Assembly: GCA_020073005.1 (NCBI GenBank)
Contig: JAIQFX010000020.1
Location: forward strand, 1-64,000
Source of the DNA: Terriglobia bacterium
GTDB taxonomy: Bacteria > Acidobacteriota > Vicinamibacteria > Vicinamibacterales > CAVVIG01
Reading direction: 5' to 3'
DNA: 64,000 nt
Made by a program: the position numbers and the translations under genes. The notes beneath the pieces were generated by a model that saw nothing but the letters and a program-made list of their open reading frames with translations, did no database searches and was not told where the DNA came from. Positions 15,175 through 44,623 of this stretch are shown one piece after another (the stretch's first letter is position 1; the number at the start of each line of letters is the position of its first letter).

Positions 15175-15246
15175 ATCCGCAGCGTGAAACTCTGAGAACC
15201 TGACCCAACCACGGACCGCGCCGGAGTGTCCTAAGATGTGCCGATC

Positions 15247-17715
15247 ATGTTGCAGGACATACAGCACGCACTCCGCGGGTTTCTGAAAACGCCGGTCTTC
15301 ACGGCAGTCGCGCTCGTCACACTGACGCTCGCCATCGGCGCGAACACCGCGATGTTCAGCCTGCTCAACGCGCTCGTGCTGCGCGATCTCCCGGTCCGCG
15401 ATCCACACACGCTCGTCCAGGTCTCCGCGGTCGCGCCTGACGCCACCTTCGAGGCGGGCCTGACGTTCCCGATGTACCGGGAGTTTCTGCGCCGTCAGCC
15501 GGTGTTTTCCGCCGTCATCGGATGGCTCGGCAACAGTGTGTTCAACATCGAAACAGACCGCGAGCAGACGAGTGGCGCAGTCTGGGTCGTCAGCGGCAAC
15601 TTCTTCTCCGACCTCGGCGTCCGGGCGTTCGCCGGTCGCGCGCTCGCGCCGCAGGATGTGAACGAAACCACACTTGAGCCCGCGCGCGTCGCCGTGCTCG
15701 GCTATGGCTTCTGGCAGCGGCATTTTGGCGGCGACGCGTCCGTAATCGGCCGGCGCGTGCGCGTCGAGGGGCAGCCGTTCGAGATTGTCGGCATCGCTCC
15801 CCAGGGGTTCGCAGCGCTGGGCCTGACGATCGAGCCCGATCTCACGATCCCCTTGACGGCGTTTCCACTCATCGCAAATACGCCAGCTGCGTCGCTCACG
15901 ACTGGCACGTCATTCTGGGTGCGCGTGACGGGGCGACTCAAGCCTGCCGTGACCATAGATCAGGCGCGCGCTGCGCTCGACACGCTCTGGCCGCAGCTCA
16001 AGGCCGACACTGTGCCGCCCGGCTACACGGGTGCGCAGCGCGATCGCTTTCTCGCGACGCGCCTGTCGGTCGCGTCCGCCGCGAAGGGCATCGAGCAGCG
16101 TCTGCGCGATCGCTACACGCAGCCACTGGTCATCGTCTTCGGCATCGCGGCGCTCGTGCTCCTCATCGCGTGCGTCAATCTCGCCAGCCTGATGTTGTCC
16201 CGCACTGCGTCACGCGCGCACGAGATCGGTGTCCGCCTTGCGCTGGGGGCCGGCCGGTGGCGCGTCGCGCGGCAACTACTCATCGAGGGCGTGCTGCTGT
16301 CGGTGGCCGGGGCGCTCCTCGGAATCGGGTTCGCGTGGTGGAGCAGCCAGGCGCTTGTTGCGCTGCTGTTCCGCGACTACCTGGTGCCGGCATCGCTGCG
16401 GGTCGGGCCAGACGCGCGGATTCTCGCGTTCACGACCGCCCTGGCGGTCGGCGTGGGCGTCTTCTTCACCGTCGTGCCCGCCTGGCGCGCGAGCCGGCTC
16501 ACCTTCCCCGAGCTCCTGCGGCAGAGCACGCGCACCGTGAGCGGATCCGGCCGCGCGGGCCGGTTCATGGTGGCCGCGCAGGTCGGACTGTCGCTGGTTC
16601 TGCTCACCAACGCCGGACTCCTCGTGCGCACGTTACTGCAGATTCGTGCCATGGACTCCGGCATGCGCTCCCAACACGTGCTGGTCGCCTATCCCTCTGC
16701 CCCGCCAGGCGGCTACGTCGGCGTCGACAACGACACGTACTACCCAGCCTTAGTCGAACGGTTGAAGGCGGTGCCCGGTGTGCAGCAAGCCGCCGTATCG
16801 CTCTTCAAGCCCGCAGGCGGCGGTGTTGTGGGCGAGGGCGAATCGGTGGCGCGCATCGACGTGCCATCGAGCGCGCTGGCGGCGCGGTCGCTATTCATGG
16901 CGATCTCGCCCGCGGTTTTCGACACGCTCGGCATCGGCGTCAGAGCGGGGCGCGATTTCTCGTGGAGCGATAATTCTCGGGGCCGGCGCGTCGCCATCGT
17001 GAGCGACAGTCTGGCGCGCCGCCTGTTTGGGAGCGGCGCGCCGATGGGACGGCACATCAGCATCGGCGTTCTGCCTCGGCGTCAGGACCTCGAGATCGTT
17101 GGCGTGGTCGCGGACGCCCGCATCTACAACCTCAAGGATCCGAACACGTCCGCGGTGTACGTGCCGGCGCTTCAGGATGGCGACAACGCGAATTGGAAAT
17201 GCTTCGTAATCCGGGGTGGTGGGGTTTCTCTGGTTGACCTCAATCGCGCGGTAGAGCCCTTTGGGCACGAGCACATCCGCTCGACTGAAACGATGCCGTA
17301 CATCACCGACCGCGTGCTGCTGCAGGAACGGATTGTCGCCATGCTGGCGGCGTTCTTCGGAGCGCTGGCGCTGTTGCTGGCCGCCGTGGGCCTCTACGGG
17401 TTGATGTCCTACGCCGTCGCTCAACGGCGGCGCGACATCGGCATCCGGATCGCTCTCGGCGCTGATCGGGGGCGCATTATCCGCGCGGTTGTGGGCGATG
17501 GACTGGCCGTTACCATGGCTGGCGTCACATGCGGGTTTGCAGCGGCGTTCGGAACGGTACGTCTGGTGAAGTCGCTATTATTTGGCGTGACGACGTCCGA
17601 TCCGGTCACGCTCGCGGGCGCGCCGGCGACGCTGGTCGCGGTCGCGCTCATCGCGTGTCTGCTCCCTGCCGTGCGCGCGAGCCACGTCGATCCCATCACG
17701 ACGCTCCGAGACTGA
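15247..17715 (+). CDS. ADOP family permease (MacB/FtsX-type)
   Basis: A complete acidobacterial orphan permease of 822 residues: MLQDIQHALRGFLKTPVF, then LTLAIGANTAMFSLLNALVLR, a periplasmic domain, a first FtsX module around 290-420 (RAHEIGVRLALGAGRWRV), a second periplasmic domain, and a second FtsX module (QRRRDIGIRIALGADRGR) ending at VRASHVDPITTLRD. It lacks the prefix domain and PadR partner of the first ADOP. A paralogue in the process of loss lies directly upstream. ATG 15247 is preferred to GTG 15238 because family members begin at MLQD. It is probably a membrane exporter component without a known ATPase. Confidence 0.92.
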   Translation: MLQDIQHALRGFLKTPVFTAVALVTLTLAIGANTAMFSLLNALVLRDLPVRDPHTLVQVSAVAPDATFEAGLTFPMYREFLRRQPVFSAVIGWLGNSVFNIETDREQTSGAVWVVSGNFFSDLGVRAFAGRALAPQDVNETTLEPARVAVLGYGFWQRHFGGDASVIGRRVRVEGQPFEIVGIAPQGFAALGLTIEPDLTIPLTAFPLIANTPAASLTTGTSFWVRVTGRLKPAVTIDQARAALDTLWPQLKADTVPPGYTGAQRDRFLATRLSVASAAKGIEQRLRDRYTQPLVIVFGIAALVLLIACVNLASLMLSRTASRAHEIGVRLALGAGRWRVARQLLIEGVLLSVAGALLGIGFAWWSSQALVALLFRDYLVPASLRVGPDARILAFTTALAVGVGVFFTVVPAWRASRLTFPELLRQSTRTVSGSGRAGRFMVAAQVGLSLVLLTNAGLLVRTLLQIRAMDSGMRSQHVLVAYPSAPPGGYVGVDNDTYYPALVERLKAVPGVQQAAVSLFKPAGGGVVGEGESVARIDVPSSALAARSLFMAISPAVFDTLGIGVRAGRDFSWSDNSRGRRVAIVSDSLARRLFGSGAPMGRHISIGVLPRRQDLEIVGVVADARIYNLKDPNTSAVYVPALQDGDNANWKCFVIRGGGVSLVDLNRAVEPFGHEHIRSTETMPYITDRVLLQERIVAMLAAFFGALALLLAAVGLYGLMSYAVAQRRRDIGIRIALGADRGRIIRAVVGDGLAVTMAGVTCGFAAAFGTVRLVKSLLFGVTTSDPVTLAGAPATLVAVALIACLLPAVRASHVDPITTLRD

Positions 17716-23150: not shown

Positions 23151-25034
23151 TCAGTTGGGCGTCGGATGCTCGGCCTTGTCAATCACGAGAACATCGACGG
23201 GCCCGCGCTGCGAATCGAGCTTGAGCCCGAGCTGTTCCTGGATCGCGGTGAAGATCGACGGACCATTCGGATCGATCGCCGCGCCGTTGACGAGCGGTTC
23301 CGGCGCGCCCGCCGGGCGCTGCGGCAGGTTGTCCGGCGTCCACGTGAGGTTGAGGTCCCACCCGCCCGTGAGGCCGGTCTTGTCCAGCACCATGCGGCCG
23401 ACGAACGTCGCCAGGCTGGTCGCGAACTGCGACATGCTCGCGCCGCCCATGTTCAGGTTGCCAAAGCCGATCTGAATGCCGCACGCGATCGGCTGGCCCG
23501 GTGCCGGCGGCCCGCCAAGCCCCCCGGGACCGCGGCCGCGGCCGCGGCCGGCCGCCGCGAGCGCCGCGCAGTCGGTGTCCGACTTCTTCAGCTGCGGGCC
23601 AAGCTTTCCATCACTGCGCGCCACGATCAGCGCGTAGATCGGCATCTCTTTCGTCTCGTTGTGCATGACGACCCCGAACCGCTCCGCGAGCAGTGCGCGA
23701 AGCGCCAGCTGAAGCGGCGTGGGGCCGCCGCCGCGCTGCGCGAAGAATGCCTCCTGCGGCGTCCCGTCCAGCTTCGCGACGAGGTCGAAGTGATCGTCGG
23801 CGAGCCAGCCGGGTCCTCCGGTGATCTGAGAATCCTGAAGCTGATACGCCTGGCGGATCAGCATGCGCAGCGTGACGTTGGTCGCCGTGAAACGGCCTGG
23901 CTGATTCTGAAACATGACGCGGCCGTCGCCCGAGTTGTTGGGTTTGACCGACGCGACTTCGAACGCCGGGCCCGCAGCCGGCGCCTGCGTCTGCGATCTG
24001 CCGACGGCGCGCAGCGGTGAGATCGTCAGCGCGAGAAGCGCGACGAGCCCGGCGACGCTGGCTGCCCTCGGAAATCCGGCGCGCCCGCGGGCCTGACGGC
24101 TGTCGAGGAGCGCCCTGACGCGGGCGGACAGATCGCTGCGGCCCGCCATCGAGAGCGCCGGCTGATATGACTGGAATGTTTGATGCGAGACGCGCGCGGC
24201 CAGCGTGACGAGCTGCTCCGCGTAGTCCGCGCTCTCCGTGCCCCTGAGCACCGCATCGTCGCACGCGCGCTCGGATTCGAGGCACAGGTGGCGCCACGCG
24301 ATCCACGCGAGCGGATGGAACCAGTACAGCGCGCAGACGACGCGCGCGGCGAACTGGACCGGCCAGTCGGCGCGGCGGACGTGCTCGAGCTCGTGGACCA
24401 TCGCGCGCCTGACGTCGGTGTCCGACCACGATTGCGCGTCGGCCGGCATGACGATCGCGGGTCGCACGAAGCCGCACGTCAGCGGCGTCGCGATCTTTTC
24501 GCTGAGAAGCACGTCGATCGGCCGAGCGACGCCGGCGTGCCGCGCGATCATGCGTGCGATCGGCGTCGCGGCCAGCCACGGCACGCCGTTCCGCCGCAGG
24601 CCGCGAAGCCGCCACAGCGCCACACCAACCGGCGCGAGAAAAAGAATCGCACCGGTGACCCACGCGACGCGCATGAGCGTCGAGATCCTGGCCGACGGTC
24701 CTGGGATCGGCGGGGCGGGCAAATCCTCGACAATCTTCGAGAGGTACAGCAGATCGTTCCCGCCTACCGCGTTCAGGCGTATTTCCCGATGAGCAGTGAC
24801 CGGAGCATCAGGAACGGCGACCGCGACCGGCGGCATGAGCAACGCGACGGCCGGCAACGTCAGCAACACGCCGAACGCCGACGCCAGCAGCACGTGGCGC
24901 ACCGAGGCGCGGGCGCGCCTGGCGGCCCAGGCGCCGGCGAGCGTCAGCGCGAGCACGATGGTCGCTTTCACGATGAGGGACAGCTCGCCCGAGTTGCTGA
25001 CCGCCAGAGCCATCCTTGCCAACATGTCCGTCAT
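23151..25034 (-). CDS. BlaR1-like M56 metallopeptidase sensor fused to a TIGR03435 domain
   Basis: A 627-residue protein. Residues 1-350 are a BlaR1/MecR1-type module: membrane helices (about 20-36, 48-72, 122-145), a cytoplasmic zinc protease loop with HELEH at 214-218 and a downstream LESERACDD, and a last helix (AGLVALLALTISPL) near 328-341. Instead of the penicillin-sensing domain of BlaR1, residues about 357-627 form a TIGR03435 domain (FEVASVKPNN, TLRMLIRQAYQL, FDLVAKLDG, LDKTGLTGGWDLNLTW, LGLKLDSQRGPVDVLVIDKAEHPTPN). Expected role: a signal perceived by the outer domain activates the protease, which inactivates the BlaI-type repressor encoded by the overlapping upstream gene (4-base overlap). 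The ligand is unknown. Confidence 0.9.
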   Translation of the reverse strand: MTDMLARMALAVSNSGELSLIVKATIVLALTLAGAWAARRARASVRHVLLASAFGVLLTLPAVALLMPPVAVAVPDAPVTAHREIRLNAVGGNDLLYLSKIVEDLPAPPIPGPSARISTLMRVAWVTGAILFLAPVGVALWRLRGLRRNGVPWLAATPIARMIARHAGVARPIDVLLSEKIATPLTCGFVRPAIVMPADAQSWSDTDVRRAMVHELEHVRRADWPVQFAARVVCALYWFHPLAWIAWRHLCLESERACDDAVLRGTESADYAEQLVTLAARVSHQTFQSYQPALSMAGRSDLSARVRALLDSRQARGRAGFPRAASVAGLVALLALTISPLRAVGRSQTQAPAAGPAFEVASVKPNNSGDGRVMFQNQPGRFTATNVTLRMLIRQAYQLQDSQITGGPGWLADDHFDLVAKLDGTPQEAFFAQRGGGPTPLQLALRALLAERFGVVMHNETKEMPIYALIVARSDGKLGPQLKKSDTDCAALAAAGRGRGRGPGGLGGPPAPGQPIACGIQIGFGNLNMGGASMSQFATSLATFVGRMVLDKTGLTGGWDLNLTWTPDNLPQRPAGAPEPLVNGAAIDPNGPSIFTAIQEQLGLKLDSQRGPVDVLVIDKAEHPTPN

Positions 25035-25423
25035 GACTGTTTCCTTCCCTTGCGTACGCGATCGATTTCGGTGCGAAGCGAGTCGAGCTCTTCGTCGGTC
25101 CAGGCTTCCTGTCTGACGAGCGCGGTCATCATTTGGCCGAGGGATCCGTCGAAAAACACGCGGAGGTACTGCTGCAGGGCCGCGCGGCGGGCGGCGGCGT
25201 GCGACGTGGTGGCCGAGTAGACGTAGCGGACGCCGTCCTCCTGATGGCGGAGGTAGCCCTTGTGTTCGAGCCGGACGAGCATCGCGCGGACGGCCGAATA
25301 GCTGGGCGGATCCGAGAGGCGCGCGCGGATGTCCTCGGCGGTCGCCTTGTTCGCCAGCGCGAACAGCGCGTTCATGATCTCGCGCTCGCGGCGCGACAGT
25401 TTCTCGGCGGGCGGTGTGCGCAT
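25031..25423 (-). CDS. BlaI/MecI/CopY family repressor
   Basis: A 130-residue winged-helix repressor: LSRREREIMNALFALANKA (first helix), DIRARLSDPPSYSAVRAMLVRLEHKGYLRH (recognition helix and wing), and a C-terminal dimerisation and cleavage region ending in VRKGRKQS. It is translationally coupled to the M56 sensor gene. The upstream region has two TACA-N2-TGTA-type palindromes on a strong promoter, the operator form known for BlaI/MecI, so it should repress its own operon until the sensor is activated. The ATG at 25423 has AGGGA about six bases upstream. Confidence 0.93.
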   Translation of the reverse strand: MRTPPAEKLSRREREIMNALFALANKATAEDIRARLSDPPSYSAVRAMLVRLEHKGYLRHQEDGVRYVYSATTSHAAARRAALQQYLRVFFDGSLGQMMTALVRQEAWTDEELDSLRTEIDRVRKGRKQS

Positions 25424-25450
25424 GCGGTCCCTGTGACAGGTGCCACGAGT

Positions 25451-25493
25451 GCTACAAGTGCAGCATCTTATTGCTACAGGTGTAGCATGTCAA
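25451..25493 (-). promoter_or_regulatory. blaI promoter with two BlaI-type operators
   Basis: On the minus strand a consensus TTGACA (25493-25488) and TAAGAT (25470-25465) are 17 bases apart. GCTACAGGTGTAGC, a perfect-armed palindrome at 25473-25486, fills the spacer. GCTACAAGTGCAGC at 25451-25464 covers the expected transcription start. Both contain the TACA-N2-TG(T/C)A core of BlaI/MecI operators. Their centres are 22 bases apart, two helical turns, so two dimers would sit on the same face. Confidence 0.88.
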
Positions 25494-25552: not shown

Positions 25553-26098
25553 TCAATCAGTTCCCGAAAGCTCCAGCCAGTGACCGCTGGACCAGTACCA
25601 GACCGTCGAGCCCTTTTCCACGAAGGCATCAGTGATGCCGTCATGATCCGGCGACGGAATCTTCGGATCGTTACGGTTGTGCTGACGGATGGATGCCGCA
25701 GTCGCCACGCCGATCGCCCGCGAGTACCCAATCGCCTGATTCGGGCCGACGACCTGCAAATAGTTCAAGTCGGGATGCGTGGCGAGCACGTCGACGGATG
25801 ACGTCGAGCCGCCTCTGAATACCAGAATCGACGATGCCTGCTTGATCGAGCACAACGCCGCCCAATCGGCGGCCGTCGCGGACGTGAACCGGCCGCTGAC
25901 GACGTTGCCCGGACGCCTTGCATTGAAAGGCTGAGGGACCGTGCACCCGCGCCGCTCCAGCTCCCCACGAATGGCCGCGGGCAGACTCGTGAATGCAGAT
26001 GGAGACAGCCGCGCCGTCTCGCGATCCGCTTTGGCCCAGTCCAGCGCGGACGTCTGCGCAACGAGTGCGAGCGTGATGACGAAGATGAGCTCAGCCAT
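25553..26098 (-). CDS. Putative secreted protein of unknown function
   Basis: A 181-residue protein with a short signal peptide (LIFVITLALVAQTSA). The mature part has two cysteines (RGCTVPQ and LCSIKQAS), a hydrophobic VDVLATHPDLNYLQVVG strand region and a Trp/Tyr-rich end (VWYWSSGHWLEL). I do not recognise a domain. The ATG follows immediately after the TAG of the short ankyrin-like gene upstream, so the two would be translated together. Codon use matches the neighbours. It could be a small periplasmic or lipid-independent envelope protein. Confidence 0.55.
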   Translation of the reverse strand: MAELIFVITLALVAQTSALDWAKADRETARLSPSAFTSLPAAIRGELERRGCTVPQPFNARRPGNVVSGRFTSATAADWAALCSIKQASSILVFRGGSTSSVDVLATHPDLNYLQVVGPNQAIGYSRAIGVATAASIRQHNRNDPKIPSPDHDGITDAFVEKGSTVWYWSSGHWLELSGTD

Positions 26099-41413: not shown

Positions 41414-44400
41414 CTAGAACAGTAACTTCGCCGCGAGCTGCACGTTGAACGGCTCGCCCGATCCGATCCCGGGCGCGTTGGACGCGTTGCGCGTGCTGCT
41501 CATCAACCCGAACGTCGTCGAGCTCCCCAGTGACGCGCCCGGATTCGCCCAGTTGATGATGTTGAAGACGTTGAAGATCTCGCAGCGCAGCTGCAGCGAC
41601 ATCCCATGGTCGAGCTTCGTCGTCTTGAACACCGACACGTCGACGGTCTTGAACCACGGCCCGTAGTACGCGTTCCGCGCCAGGTTGCCGTAGGTGCCCG
41701 CCGCCGGCAGCGCGAAGGCTGCGGGATCGAACCACCGCACGGATGTTCCGGTCGTCGGCTGCGTGACGTTGGCGAACGGATCGCCGACGAGGTTCGGACG
41801 ATCCTGGCGATCGCCCGTGCCGTCGGTGTCGGCGCCGGTGGTGATGTTGAACGGCGACCCGCTCTGAATCGTCGAGATGACGTTGAACTGCCAGCCGTCG
41901 CCCAGCCGGCCCGATCCCACCGCCGGCAGGTTGTACGTGAAGCCTGCGCTGATCACGTGACGGATGTCGAACGAGGCGTTGCCCCAGTCCGCATTGATGT
42001 CCGCCGAGTTCATCGGCAGCGTGTTGCGCGCTTCCGACCCGTTGTCCATCGCGTGGCTCAGCGTGTAGTTGAGCCGGCCGGACATGCCGTGCCACGAGCT
42101 CTGGATGAGCGACATCTGGAGCGAGTTGTACTCGGAGCTGCCGATCGAATCGAGCTCGTTGATGGCCGCGAGCGTCGGATACTGCGAGTTGTACGGCCGC
42201 GCCGCCTGCGAGACGCCGCCGGCGCGCGGCGCCGGCGCGTTGATGTCGCGCATCAGCCCGAGACGATGGCCGCGCGTGCCGACGTAGGCGATCTGGGCGA
42301 TCATCGTCGGCGCGAGCTGCTGCTGCACGTTGAGGTTGAAGTTGATGACGTACGGCAGCTTCAGGTCCTGGCTGACGGCGAACGCGCCGTACGGCGGATT
42401 CGGCGTCGCGCCGAACACGGGCGCGCCGTTCACGAGGTTGAACTTCGTCTGCGTGATCGAGAACACGGGCGACGAACCGCCCGGATTGTTGCCGACGCCC
42501 AGCGCCCCGCCGTTGGCGAAGCCCGTGTTCGCCGTGAAGAAGTTCACCGCGAACATGTCGTAGAAGAGCCCCCAGCCGCCGCGAATCACGGTCTTGCGGC
42601 TGTCGGTCGGCGCGAACGTGAACCCGGCGCGCGGCGACAGGTCCGTCTTGTCGGGCGGATACAGCGTGTCGGTCGAGACCATCCCCTGGCCGGGAATGAA
42701 TTCCGTGAGCTGGCCGTCGGTGGCGCCCAGCACGCCGGGGTACGTGTACCGCAGCCCGGCATTGACCGTCAGTTTCGGCGTGACCGTCCAGACGTCCTGC
42801 GCGTAGATGTCGAACGAATCCTGGATGTAGTCATGATGCGTGTTGCCGCGGACGATGCTGCCCGTCGCGACGCGGCCGGCCATGAAGTCGGCCAGCGACT
42901 TGAGCGCCGAGCTTGCCTGCGCCGCCGGCAGCGAGGCCCACGGACCGACGGTGCCGTCGAAGGTGAACGTGCCGCGCTTGTTGCTGTCGTAGAAGACGAA
43001 CAGCTTGGCGATGCGCGCTTCGCCGCCGATCTTGATCTGGTGCGCGCCGGTCGCGTACGTCATCGAGTCGGTGACCTGAAACGTCTTGTCGATCCGCCCG
43101 AGCGGCTGCGTGCCGCCGACCGCCGCGAAGCCGTTGATCGTGATGTTGGGCGGCCCGACCAGCGTCGCGTCGTCGCTGACGCCCGTGTTGAGCCCCATCG
43201 ACACCGGATCGGCCGACGTGTCGAACGAGTTGAACGTCTGCTTGAAGTAGTTGTAGCCGACGACCAGCTGGTTCACCAGGTGGGACGTGTAGACGCCCGT
43301 CGTCACCACCGACACGTTGTGCATGCGGCTCGGCACCGCCTGGAAGTACGCGAGGTACGGCGAATTGATCTGCGCGACCTGATCGCCGCCGCCGCCGAAG
43401 TACCGCGCCGACACGCTGTGCACCGAGTTGAACTGGTGATCGACTTTGACGATGCCGTTGTAGCTGTTGTACGTGTTCGGATCGGCGCTCACGAAATTCA
43501 ATGCCGTGGCCGGTCCGGTCATGCTGTCCGCGGGCCAGAGGGCGAGCAGCTTCTGCGACACCGGATTCACCGGCACCGAGAACTGATTGAGGAGCTGTGT
43601 CGCGCTCGCGACCCAGGCCGGCGACGGCGCCGTGTCCGGGAGCGAGTTGGCGGCGGTCAGCTTCTGGATTTCGAGCGTCGAGAAGTAGAACGTCTTGTTC
43701 TTGGTGATCGGTCCGCCGAGCGAGAAGCCGTACTGGTTGTTGCGAATCTCCCGCTTCGACGAGCCCGGGGCGGCCGTCGGCGAATTCGCGGACAGCGCCT
43801 CGTTGCGGTTGAAGTAGTACACGCTGCCCTTGACGTCGTTGGTCCCGGACTTCATGACGAGGTTGACCGTCGAGCCGGCGTTGCGGCCCTGCTCGGCCTC
43901 GCCGCCCGACTGCACGGAAAACTGATCGATGGCCTCGATCGGCAGCAGCGTGCCGGCGATGCCCGAGACGCCGCCCTGGTTGACCGCGGCCACGTTCTGG
44001 AACGCGTCGTTGTTGTCGGCGCCGTCGATCTGGTAGTTGTTGCCGCGGCCGCGCACGCCGTTCACCGACGTCCCGGCGACGCCCGGCGAGAGCTGCAGCA
44101 TGCGCGTGAAATCGCGGCCGTTGAGCGGCAGATCCTGCACCTGCTTCGGATTGATCACGTTGGCCAGCGACGTCGACTTCGTGTCGAGCGTGATCGCGGT
44201 CGCCGACACGGTGACCGTCTCCGAGACGCTCGACAGCCCCATCTTCATCGTGATTTCCGAGATGCGCGAGACCGTGACTTCCAGTGTGGCAGTCTGCGTC
44301 TGGAAGCCCTGCAGGCTGAATTCGACTTTGTAGATGCCCAGCGCGAGATCCGGGAGCGAGAAATCGCCCGTGTCGGACGACGTCGTCGTCCGCCCGACGC

Positions 44401-44572
44401 CGGTCGCGTTGTTGGTCGCGGTCACGGTCACGCCGGGCAGCACCGCGCCGGTCGAGTCAACGACCCTTCCCGAGATTCCGCCGCGAAACGTCTGGGCCCC
44501 GGCGACCGAGGCCGTAGCAAGTATCAGAACCACCACACTCAACGCCGACGAGAACCGCTTCAGGCAGGACAT
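41414..44572 (-). CDS. TonB-dependent-type outer membrane receptor with carboxypeptidase-regulatory domain
   Basis: A 1052-residue protein. It has a signal peptide (SALSVVVLILATASVAGAQ), a regulatory beta domain (GGISGRVVDSTGAVLPGVTV, GDFSLPDLALGIYKVEFSL), a plug (ATAITLDTKSTSLANVI, QDLPLNGRDFTRMLQLSPG, GRGNNYQIDGADNN, SVQSGGEAEQGRNAGS) and a long C-terminal barrel ending in FNVQLAAKLLF. It is a complete member of the large acidobacterial receptor family; the ligand is unknown. The start at 44572 is fixed by GGAGG nine bases upstream and a consensus promoter; the frame is open further up only because it runs through that promoter. Confidence 0.92.
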   Translation of the reverse strand: MSCLKRFSSALSVVVLILATASVAGAQTFRGGISGRVVDSTGAVLPGVTVTATNNATGVGRTTTSSDTGDFSLPDLALGIYKVEFSLQGFQTQTATLEVTVSRISEITMKMGLSSVSETVTVSATAITLDTKSTSLANVINPKQVQDLPLNGRDFTRMLQLSPGVAGTSVNGVRGRGNNYQIDGADNNDAFQNVAAVNQGGVSGIAGTLLPIEAIDQFSVQSGGEAEQGRNAGSTVNLVMKSGTNDVKGSVYYFNRNEALSANSPTAAPGSSKREIRNNQYGFSLGGPITKNKTFYFSTLEIQKLTAANSLPDTAPSPAWVASATQLLNQFSVPVNPVSQKLLALWPADSMTGPATALNFVSADPNTYNSYNGIVKVDHQFNSVHSVSARYFGGGGDQVAQINSPYLAYFQAVPSRMHNVSVVTTGVYTSHLVNQLVVGYNYFKQTFNSFDTSADPVSMGLNTGVSDDATLVGPPNITINGFAAVGGTQPLGRIDKTFQVTDSMTYATGAHQIKIGGEARIAKLFVFYDSNKRGTFTFDGTVGPWASLPAAQASSALKSLADFMAGRVATGSIVRGNTHHDYIQDSFDIYAQDVWTVTPKLTVNAGLRYTYPGVLGATDGQLTEFIPGQGMVSTDTLYPPDKTDLSPRAGFTFAPTDSRKTVIRGGWGLFYDMFAVNFFTANTGFANGGALGVGNNPGGSSPVFSITQTKFNLVNGAPVFGATPNPPYGAFAVSQDLKLPYVINFNLNVQQQLAPTMIAQIAYVGTRGHRLGLMRDINAPAPRAGGVSQAARPYNSQYPTLAAINELDSIGSSEYNSLQMSLIQSSWHGMSGRLNYTLSHAMDNGSEARNTLPMNSADINADWGNASFDIRHVISAGFTYNLPAVGSGRLGDGWQFNVISTIQSGSPFNITTGADTDGTGDRQDRPNLVGDPFANVTQPTTGTSVRWFDPAAFALPAAGTYGNLARNAYYGPWFKTVDVSVFKTTKLDHGMSLQLRCEIFNVFNIINWANPGASLGSSTTFGLMSSTRNASNAPGIGSGEPFNVQLAAKLLF

Positions 44573-44594
44573 GCGCACCTCCGGGTGTGGGTCG

Positions 44595-44623
44595 AATTTA
44601 TGGCCCGCCTGTCGTGGTGTCAA
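44595..44623 (-). promoter_or_regulatory. Consensus promoter of the TonB-type receptor gene
   Basis: On the minus strand TTGACA (44623-44618) and TAAATT (44600-44595) are exactly 17 bases apart. Transcription would begin about 44588, giving a leader of about 16 bases that holds the GGAGG ribosome site before ATG 44572. Confidence 0.8.

Follow-up and report, generated by a model that had tools for sequence, protein, structure and literature searches.

The closest described counterparts of the locus analysed here are the staphylococcal BlaI/BlaR1 and MecI/MecR1 systems, whose mechanism is summarised in PMC7593790. The locus resembles them in pairing a repressor with an M56 protease, apparently in one operon, with BlaI-type palindromes in the promoter, and in the order of protease domain, membrane segment and C-terminal extracytoplasmic domain. 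In BlaR1 and MecR1 this last domain is a class-D-like penicillin-binding domain, whereas here it is TIGR03435, and, unlike in BlaI/MecI systems, the genes predicted to be controlled encode an outer-membrane receptor and a VWFA protein. Control beyond beta-lactamase genes is described for mycobacterial BlaI (Rv1846c) in PMC12565901 and PMC8265638. A similar reach is predicted here, and would extend to a receptor cassette. No such cassette is known from the mycobacterial system, and the M56 partner of Rv1846c is not known to carry a TIGR03435 domain. FecA/FecR and PupB/PupR are cell-surface signalling pairs, and we propose the same logic for this circuit. One precedent is PupR (PMC7186176), which signals from the inner membrane, meets a receptor of the outer membrane and has an STN subdomain at its end. 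As in FecR/PupR signalling, the periplasmic domain of an inner-membrane regulator is encoded here beside an outer-membrane receptor, and TIGR03435 has a weak, at most suggestive resemblance to STN/N0; the output, however, is a repressor and a protease instead of an anti-sigma/sigma pair, and the receptor, unlike TonB-dependent transducers, has a CarboxypepD_reg N-terminus with no recognised STN or plug. Its N-terminal domain and large barrel recall Myxococcus Oar, which is needed for PopC secretion; unlike Oar, its barrel is of the OMP_b-brl_4 type with no Plug match, and it has VWFA and TIGR03435 partners, neither of which belongs to the Oar system as covered in the consulted part of PMC6434023.

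Multiple copies of TIGR03435, of Oar-like receptors and of TIGR03436 proteins are a feature of the Acidobacteria, which are abundant in soil. In Solibacter, 'antirepressor' genes are expanded (12 versus 3), and the paralogue groups include a CopY-family repressor, a TonB receptor and VWFA, with no link drawn between them in the consulted part of PMC3174227. The names TIGR03435, DUF3738 and TIGR03436 are absent from 5.39 million open papers, and the open literature likewise holds nothing relevant joining M56, BlaI and Acidobacteria. The circuit is of a known type, and the locus represents a widespread variant of it that is apparently undescribed in the open literature.

The window, the whole stretch of 64,000 nt that we analysed, comprises positions 1-64,000 (forward strand) of contig JAIQFX010000020.1 from a Terriglobia bacterium (GenBank GCA_020073005.1; GTDB lineage Acidobacteriota; Vicinamibacteria; Vicinamibacterales; CAVVIG01), which we term a soil-type Acidobacterium. 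The assembly comprises 179 contigs (completeness 100, contamination 4.63) and a genome of 5.86 Mb, and an artefact is unlikely because a sister species (L033) has the same cassette. Four genes on the minus strand (Table 1) look like one transcript, judging by their spacing: the blaI stop overlaps the start of the fusion gene by 4 nt, 45 nt separate the fusion gene from the receptor gene, and 18 nt lie between the receptor and VWFA genes. The VWFA gene is the last in the putative operon, the next gene (15238-17715) lying on the plus strand. Just upstream of the operon is a 181-residue open frame with no family match (25553-26098, minus strand), at the place of which an unrelated, permease-like frame is found in the sister species.

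Table 1. Positions in the window of the predicted operon, its promoter elements and protein domains
Feature	Position	Strand	Basis
-35 hexamer TTGACA	25488..25493	-	promoter scan
Operator 1, TGCTACA-CC-TGTAGCA, perfect palindrome in the -35/-10 spacer	25472..25487	-	palindrome and pattern searches, sister comparison
-10 hexamer TAAGAT	25465..25470	-	promoter scan
Operator 2, TGCTGCA-CT-TGTAGCA, one mismatch, just after -10	25450..25465	-	palindrome and pattern searches, sister comparison
BlaI/MecI-family repressor, 130 aa (P0002)	25031..25423	-	Penicillinase_R E 6.7e-25; MecI E 9.9e-5
M56 protease-TIGR03435 fusion, 627 aa (P0001)	23151..25034	-	Peptidase_M56 and DUF3738 matches
Peptidase_M56 domain, residues 97-308	24111..24746	-	E 2e-30
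Zinc motif HELEH, residues 214-218	24381..24395	-	sequence
Last hydrophobic segment, residues 327-345	24000..24056	-	hydrophobicity and positive-inside pattern
TIGR03435/DUF3738 periplasmic domain, residues 356-627	23154..23969	-	profile match; AlphaFold2
TIGR03435 C-terminal half, residues 512-627, weak STN/N0 resemblance	23154..23501	-	structure and profile comparison
Oar-like outer-membrane protein, 1037 aa	19992..23105	-	CarboxypepD_reg and OMP_b-brl_4
TIGR03436 acidobacterial VWFA protein, 718 aa	17817..19973	-	TIGR03436 match

The promoter TTGACA-N17-TAAGAT proposed in a sequence-only reading of the window was recovered by scan (25493-25465; by chance a region would hold 0.5 such sites on average). 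That reading had placed on it two TACA-N2-TGTA palindromes 22 bases apart; the centres are indeed 22 bp apart and operator 1 (TGCTACACCTGTAGCA) is exact, whereas operator 2 (TGCTGCACTTGTAGCA) has one mismatch, TACA-N2-TGCA. Both are candidate BlaI sites, and TACA-N2-TGTA-type operators in a gene's own promoter are a mark of the BlaI family. A pattern search of the 5.86-Mb genome with up to two mismatches found the operator 16-mer at four places, two of them operators 1 and 2, whereas the control pattern, written backwards, had 70 matches, and the perfect 14-mer core of operator 1 (GCTACA-N2-TGTAGC) occurs only once. In the sister species the promoter and both operators are nearly unchanged, whereas the flanking intergenic DNA diverges. 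For the relatives, an exact TACA-N2-TGTA scan was too narrow and a general 7-2-7 palindrome test was used instead: inverted repeats with at least 6 of 7 pairs lie 5' of 21 of the 59 related blaI genes, where shuffled sequences would give 8.6, and an ACA-N2-TGT core is present in many of them (e.g. TGCGACA-N2-TGTCGCG, TACTACA-N2-TGTAGTA and TGTGACA-N2-TGTCACA). The operator is not repeated before the receptor gene, where the sequence-only reading had suggested looking: palindrome and promoter scans returned no TACA-type palindrome and no promoter-like site there. The 45- and 18-nt gaps join the receptor and VWFA genes to the operon, so that no second operator would be needed, and their place in it makes it very likely that the circuit controls both directly.

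Regulator and M56 protease are intact, as had been claimed: the Penicillinase_R match spans the whole of BlaI (profile positions 1-114 of 115), and the protease has both the Peptidase_M56 match and HExxH, which is kept in 69/69 fused relatives. The N-F dipeptide at the cleavage site of MecI is not conserved in BlaI here, the residues aligned with it being A-L. Hydrophobic segments of the fusion protein (~20-38, 48-66, 123-141 and 327-345) are flanked by basic residues on the cytoplasmic side, a predicted layout that fits BlaR1, and this positive-inside pattern places the TIGR03435 domain in the periplasm.

That the sensing half is TIGR03435 and not a penicillin-binding domain agrees with the sequence-only reading. 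DUF3738/Soli_TIGR03435 matches residues 356-627 (E 1.2e-64), the TIGR03435 model is covered at full length (positions 1-241 of 241; 218 bits, cutoff 40), and family profile searches found no penicillin-binding, transpeptidase or beta-lactamase domain in the fusion protein. The single SxxK is not conserved (S in 17/95 and K in 4/95 relatives), SxN is absent, the KTG lysine is present in 59/95 relatives, and the fusion protein scores 85.4 bits against the NCBIfam BlaR1 model, whose cutoff is 400. Homology of BlaI and M56 would favour a sensor of beta-lactams or peptidoglycan fragments, as in BlaR1/MecR1, but with these motif and domain results, and no beta-lactamase in the operon, such a sensor is very improbable.

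Structure prediction of the sensor domain, which had been proposed for residues 357-627, gave a confident AlphaFold2 model (95 relatives; pLDDT 89.8, pTM 0.83). The C-terminal half modelled by itself was less confident (pLDDT 79.7, pTM 0.63), so the two halves may depend on each other. Foldseek found no significant match in the PDB for the whole domain (best E 0.78) or the C-terminal half (best E 3.9), and at the sequence level the PDB held no match to the fusion, the receptor, the VWFA protein or the TIGR03435 profile (best E for the profile 0.72). With VIA-align, the top PDB hit for the whole domain was the N0 domain of PilQ (Z 3.9, rmsd 3.8, 71 aligned). It was also the sole match of the C-terminal half (Z 3.6, rmsd 3.0, 62 aligned), and both scores are low. 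The fold that marks STN and secretin N0 domains is beta-alpha-beta-beta-alpha-beta. Pfam STN does not match the TIGR03435 domain, and the STN and C-terminal-half profiles align weakly in register (P 0.0023; reversed control 0.019). Taken together, these weak fold and profile resemblances suggest, and do no more than suggest, that TIGR03435 consists of STN-like halves. Its N- and C-terminal halves align with each other over 95 profile columns (P 4.8e-4; reversed controls 0.055-0.089), which is suggestive of an internal duplication that we do not claim.

The gene after the fusion had been called a TonB-type receptor, a label borne out in part. It encodes an Oar architecture, with CarboxypepD_reg (E 2.9e-13) and a large OMP_b-brl_4 barrel (E 2.6e-156); the Plug domain (PF07715) did not match it at E up to 5, and a search at E up to 1 found none in seven relatives or in another protein of the window; without a recognised plug its energisation by TonB is putative. 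The VWFA gene expected behind it is present, its product scoring 235 bits against TIGR03436 (cutoff 81.25). The window holds a second CarboxypepD_reg and OMP_b-brl_4 outer-membrane protein (41414-44623, minus strand), and the barrel family has at least 68 matches in the genome (44 of 101 candidates scored).

We scanned 84,980 species genomes with a query that omitted receptor and VWFA and obtained 80 loci, nearly all in lineages labelled Acidobacteriota. The arrangement blaI, M56-TIGR03435 fusion, extra TIGR03435 copies in some cases, receptor and VWFA recurs in several subdivisions, with the culturable Acidicapsa dinghuensis (L077) among the carriers of the full cassette, and one scan yielded 71 fused TIGR03435 domains; the architecture is thus common across Acidobacteriota and not the local re-tooling of BlaI/BlaR1 that had been supposed. 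A receptor gene lies within 600 nt after TIGR03435 in 35 of the 65 loci with room downstream, and VWFA comes next after it in 26/26 such loci. Fused TIGR03435 without a receptor occurs in 28 of 52 loci with room downstream, and many fusions may therefore sense something else. Eight genomes contain 59 TIGR03435 genes, and for 9 of these a VWFA gene lies 3.2-3.4 kb downstream on the same strand (0.19 expected). A search with VWFA only, covering 149 genomes of the phylum, returned eight close relatives, the window included (the others ~49-74% identical). TIGR03435 adjoins VWFA in 8/8, seven in the order TIGR03435-receptor-VWFA; in G173 (L163 141-2382, G173:C8; VWFA 67% identical to that of the window) it lies downstream of VWFA, at a contig end. 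Among 11 distant VWFA relatives (34-39%), the receptor adjoins in 11/11 and TIGR03435 in 0/11 of the fetched stretches, tying TIGR03435 to one receptor-VWFA lineage. In two genomes (G105 and G180) a free TIGR03435 gene precedes receptor-VWFA with no BlaI or M56.

Comparison of loci points to two separately evolving modules, BlaI with M56 and TIGR03435 with receptor and VWFA. In L034, BlaI and M56 are 29% and 32% identical to those of the window, with TIGR03435 at 67%, receptor at 67% and VWFA at 73%; in L035, BlaI (69%) and M56 (47%) accompany a TIGR03435 of 37%, and receptor and VWFA are both absent. Fused and free states interchange at least 11 times on well-supported branches of a tree built from 118 TIGR03435 domains (71 fused), a quick tree with about half of its inner branches weakly supported. 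Both the exchange and these changes indicate that regulatory and receptor modules meet at the fusion joint and that TIGR03435 groups by descent with the receptor side. It is better seen as a component of the receptor system that was probably recruited to be the periplasmic domain of the protease than as a sensor domain swapped onto BlaR1. Other C-terminal partners occur. The second BlaI-M56 pair of the same genome (L116 4585-6614, G000:C153) has CarboxypepD_reg and TonB_C after the protease and no adjoining receptor or VWFA, and another M56 protein (L153 2383-4095) has a weak STN match inserted in CarboxypepD_reg, with a C-terminal TonB_C.

The occurrence of unfused TIGR03435 before the same receptor elsewhere in the phylum indicates that the switch probably monitors the receptor system and not antibiotics, and the circuit is best read as cell-surface signalling of a BlaI/M56 type. 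The sequence-only reading had suggested that it may sense an envelope or polymer signal instead of beta-lactams; the envelope link is probable, beta-lactams are unlikely, and a polymer signal stays conjectural. We hypothesize an autoregulated four-gene operon in which TIGR03435 reads the state of the receptor/VWFA system and M56 relieves repression by BlaI, a proposal whose chances we consider even. The scheme that we infer, from co-transcription through BlaI binding and cleavage to the contact of TIGR03435 with receptor or VWFA and the identity of the signal, would run as follows. Repression would come from BlaI dimers on the two palindromes, which would cover the -35/-10 region. Periplasmic TIGR03435 would act as a component of the receptor/VWFA system, or as a duplicate of one. 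When that system changes state (through ligand loading, or the binding or absence of a partner), TIGR03435 would alter M56 across the membrane, and the protease would inactivate BlaI, inducing receptor, VWFA, protease and repressor alike. A more specific version, in which TIGR03435 is a pair of STN-like modules reading receptor or VWFA directly, with M56 and BlaI in place of anti-sigma/sigma and the arrangement spread across Acidobacteriota, is conceivable and stays tentative.

DegS detects the C-termini of outer-membrane proteins, a parallel for a switch in which periplasmic TIGR03435 would respond to outer-membrane protein that is mis-assembled or overloaded and the circuit would adjust receptor expression. 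The same operon and module evidence would serve such an envelope-stress switch, which does not require a transported ligand; cleavage of BlaI, however, would induce the receptor and not shut it down, and the rest of the operon is free of protease and chaperone genes, leaving this reading rather unlikely. We give a similarly low probability to TIGR03435 being a working receptor/VWFA subunit that the fusion merely anchors, with BlaI/M56 responding elsewhere in the protein, for instance via the predicted periplasmic loop 67-122, or to a different signal. The free copies beside the receptor in G105 and G180 and the many fused/free changes speak for such a subunit, but the fused copy sits at the exact sensor position of BlaR1, after the last membrane segment, and the protease motif has been retained throughout the fusions. 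Under the signalling reading that we prefer, one regulated cassette joining TIGR03435, an Oar-like receptor and a TIGR03436 protein gives TIGR03435 a testable role, as partner of the receptor system and sensor of the protease. A BlaI/BlaR1 annotation in a soil genome does not have to imply beta-lactam resistance.

TIGR03435 also occurs in other settings. At L107 (5263-6852) a free-standing TIGR03435 gene directly follows the BlaI gene, with no M56 between, and at L113 (674-4218, G000:C149) another, in a second genomic setting, overlaps a long frame of permease-like appearance at its end. A complete cassette is present in a MAG labelled Acidimicrobiia (L041, contig VFYY01000013.1), its TIGR03435, receptor and VWFA 51-66% identical to those of the window, through either mis-binning or transfer.
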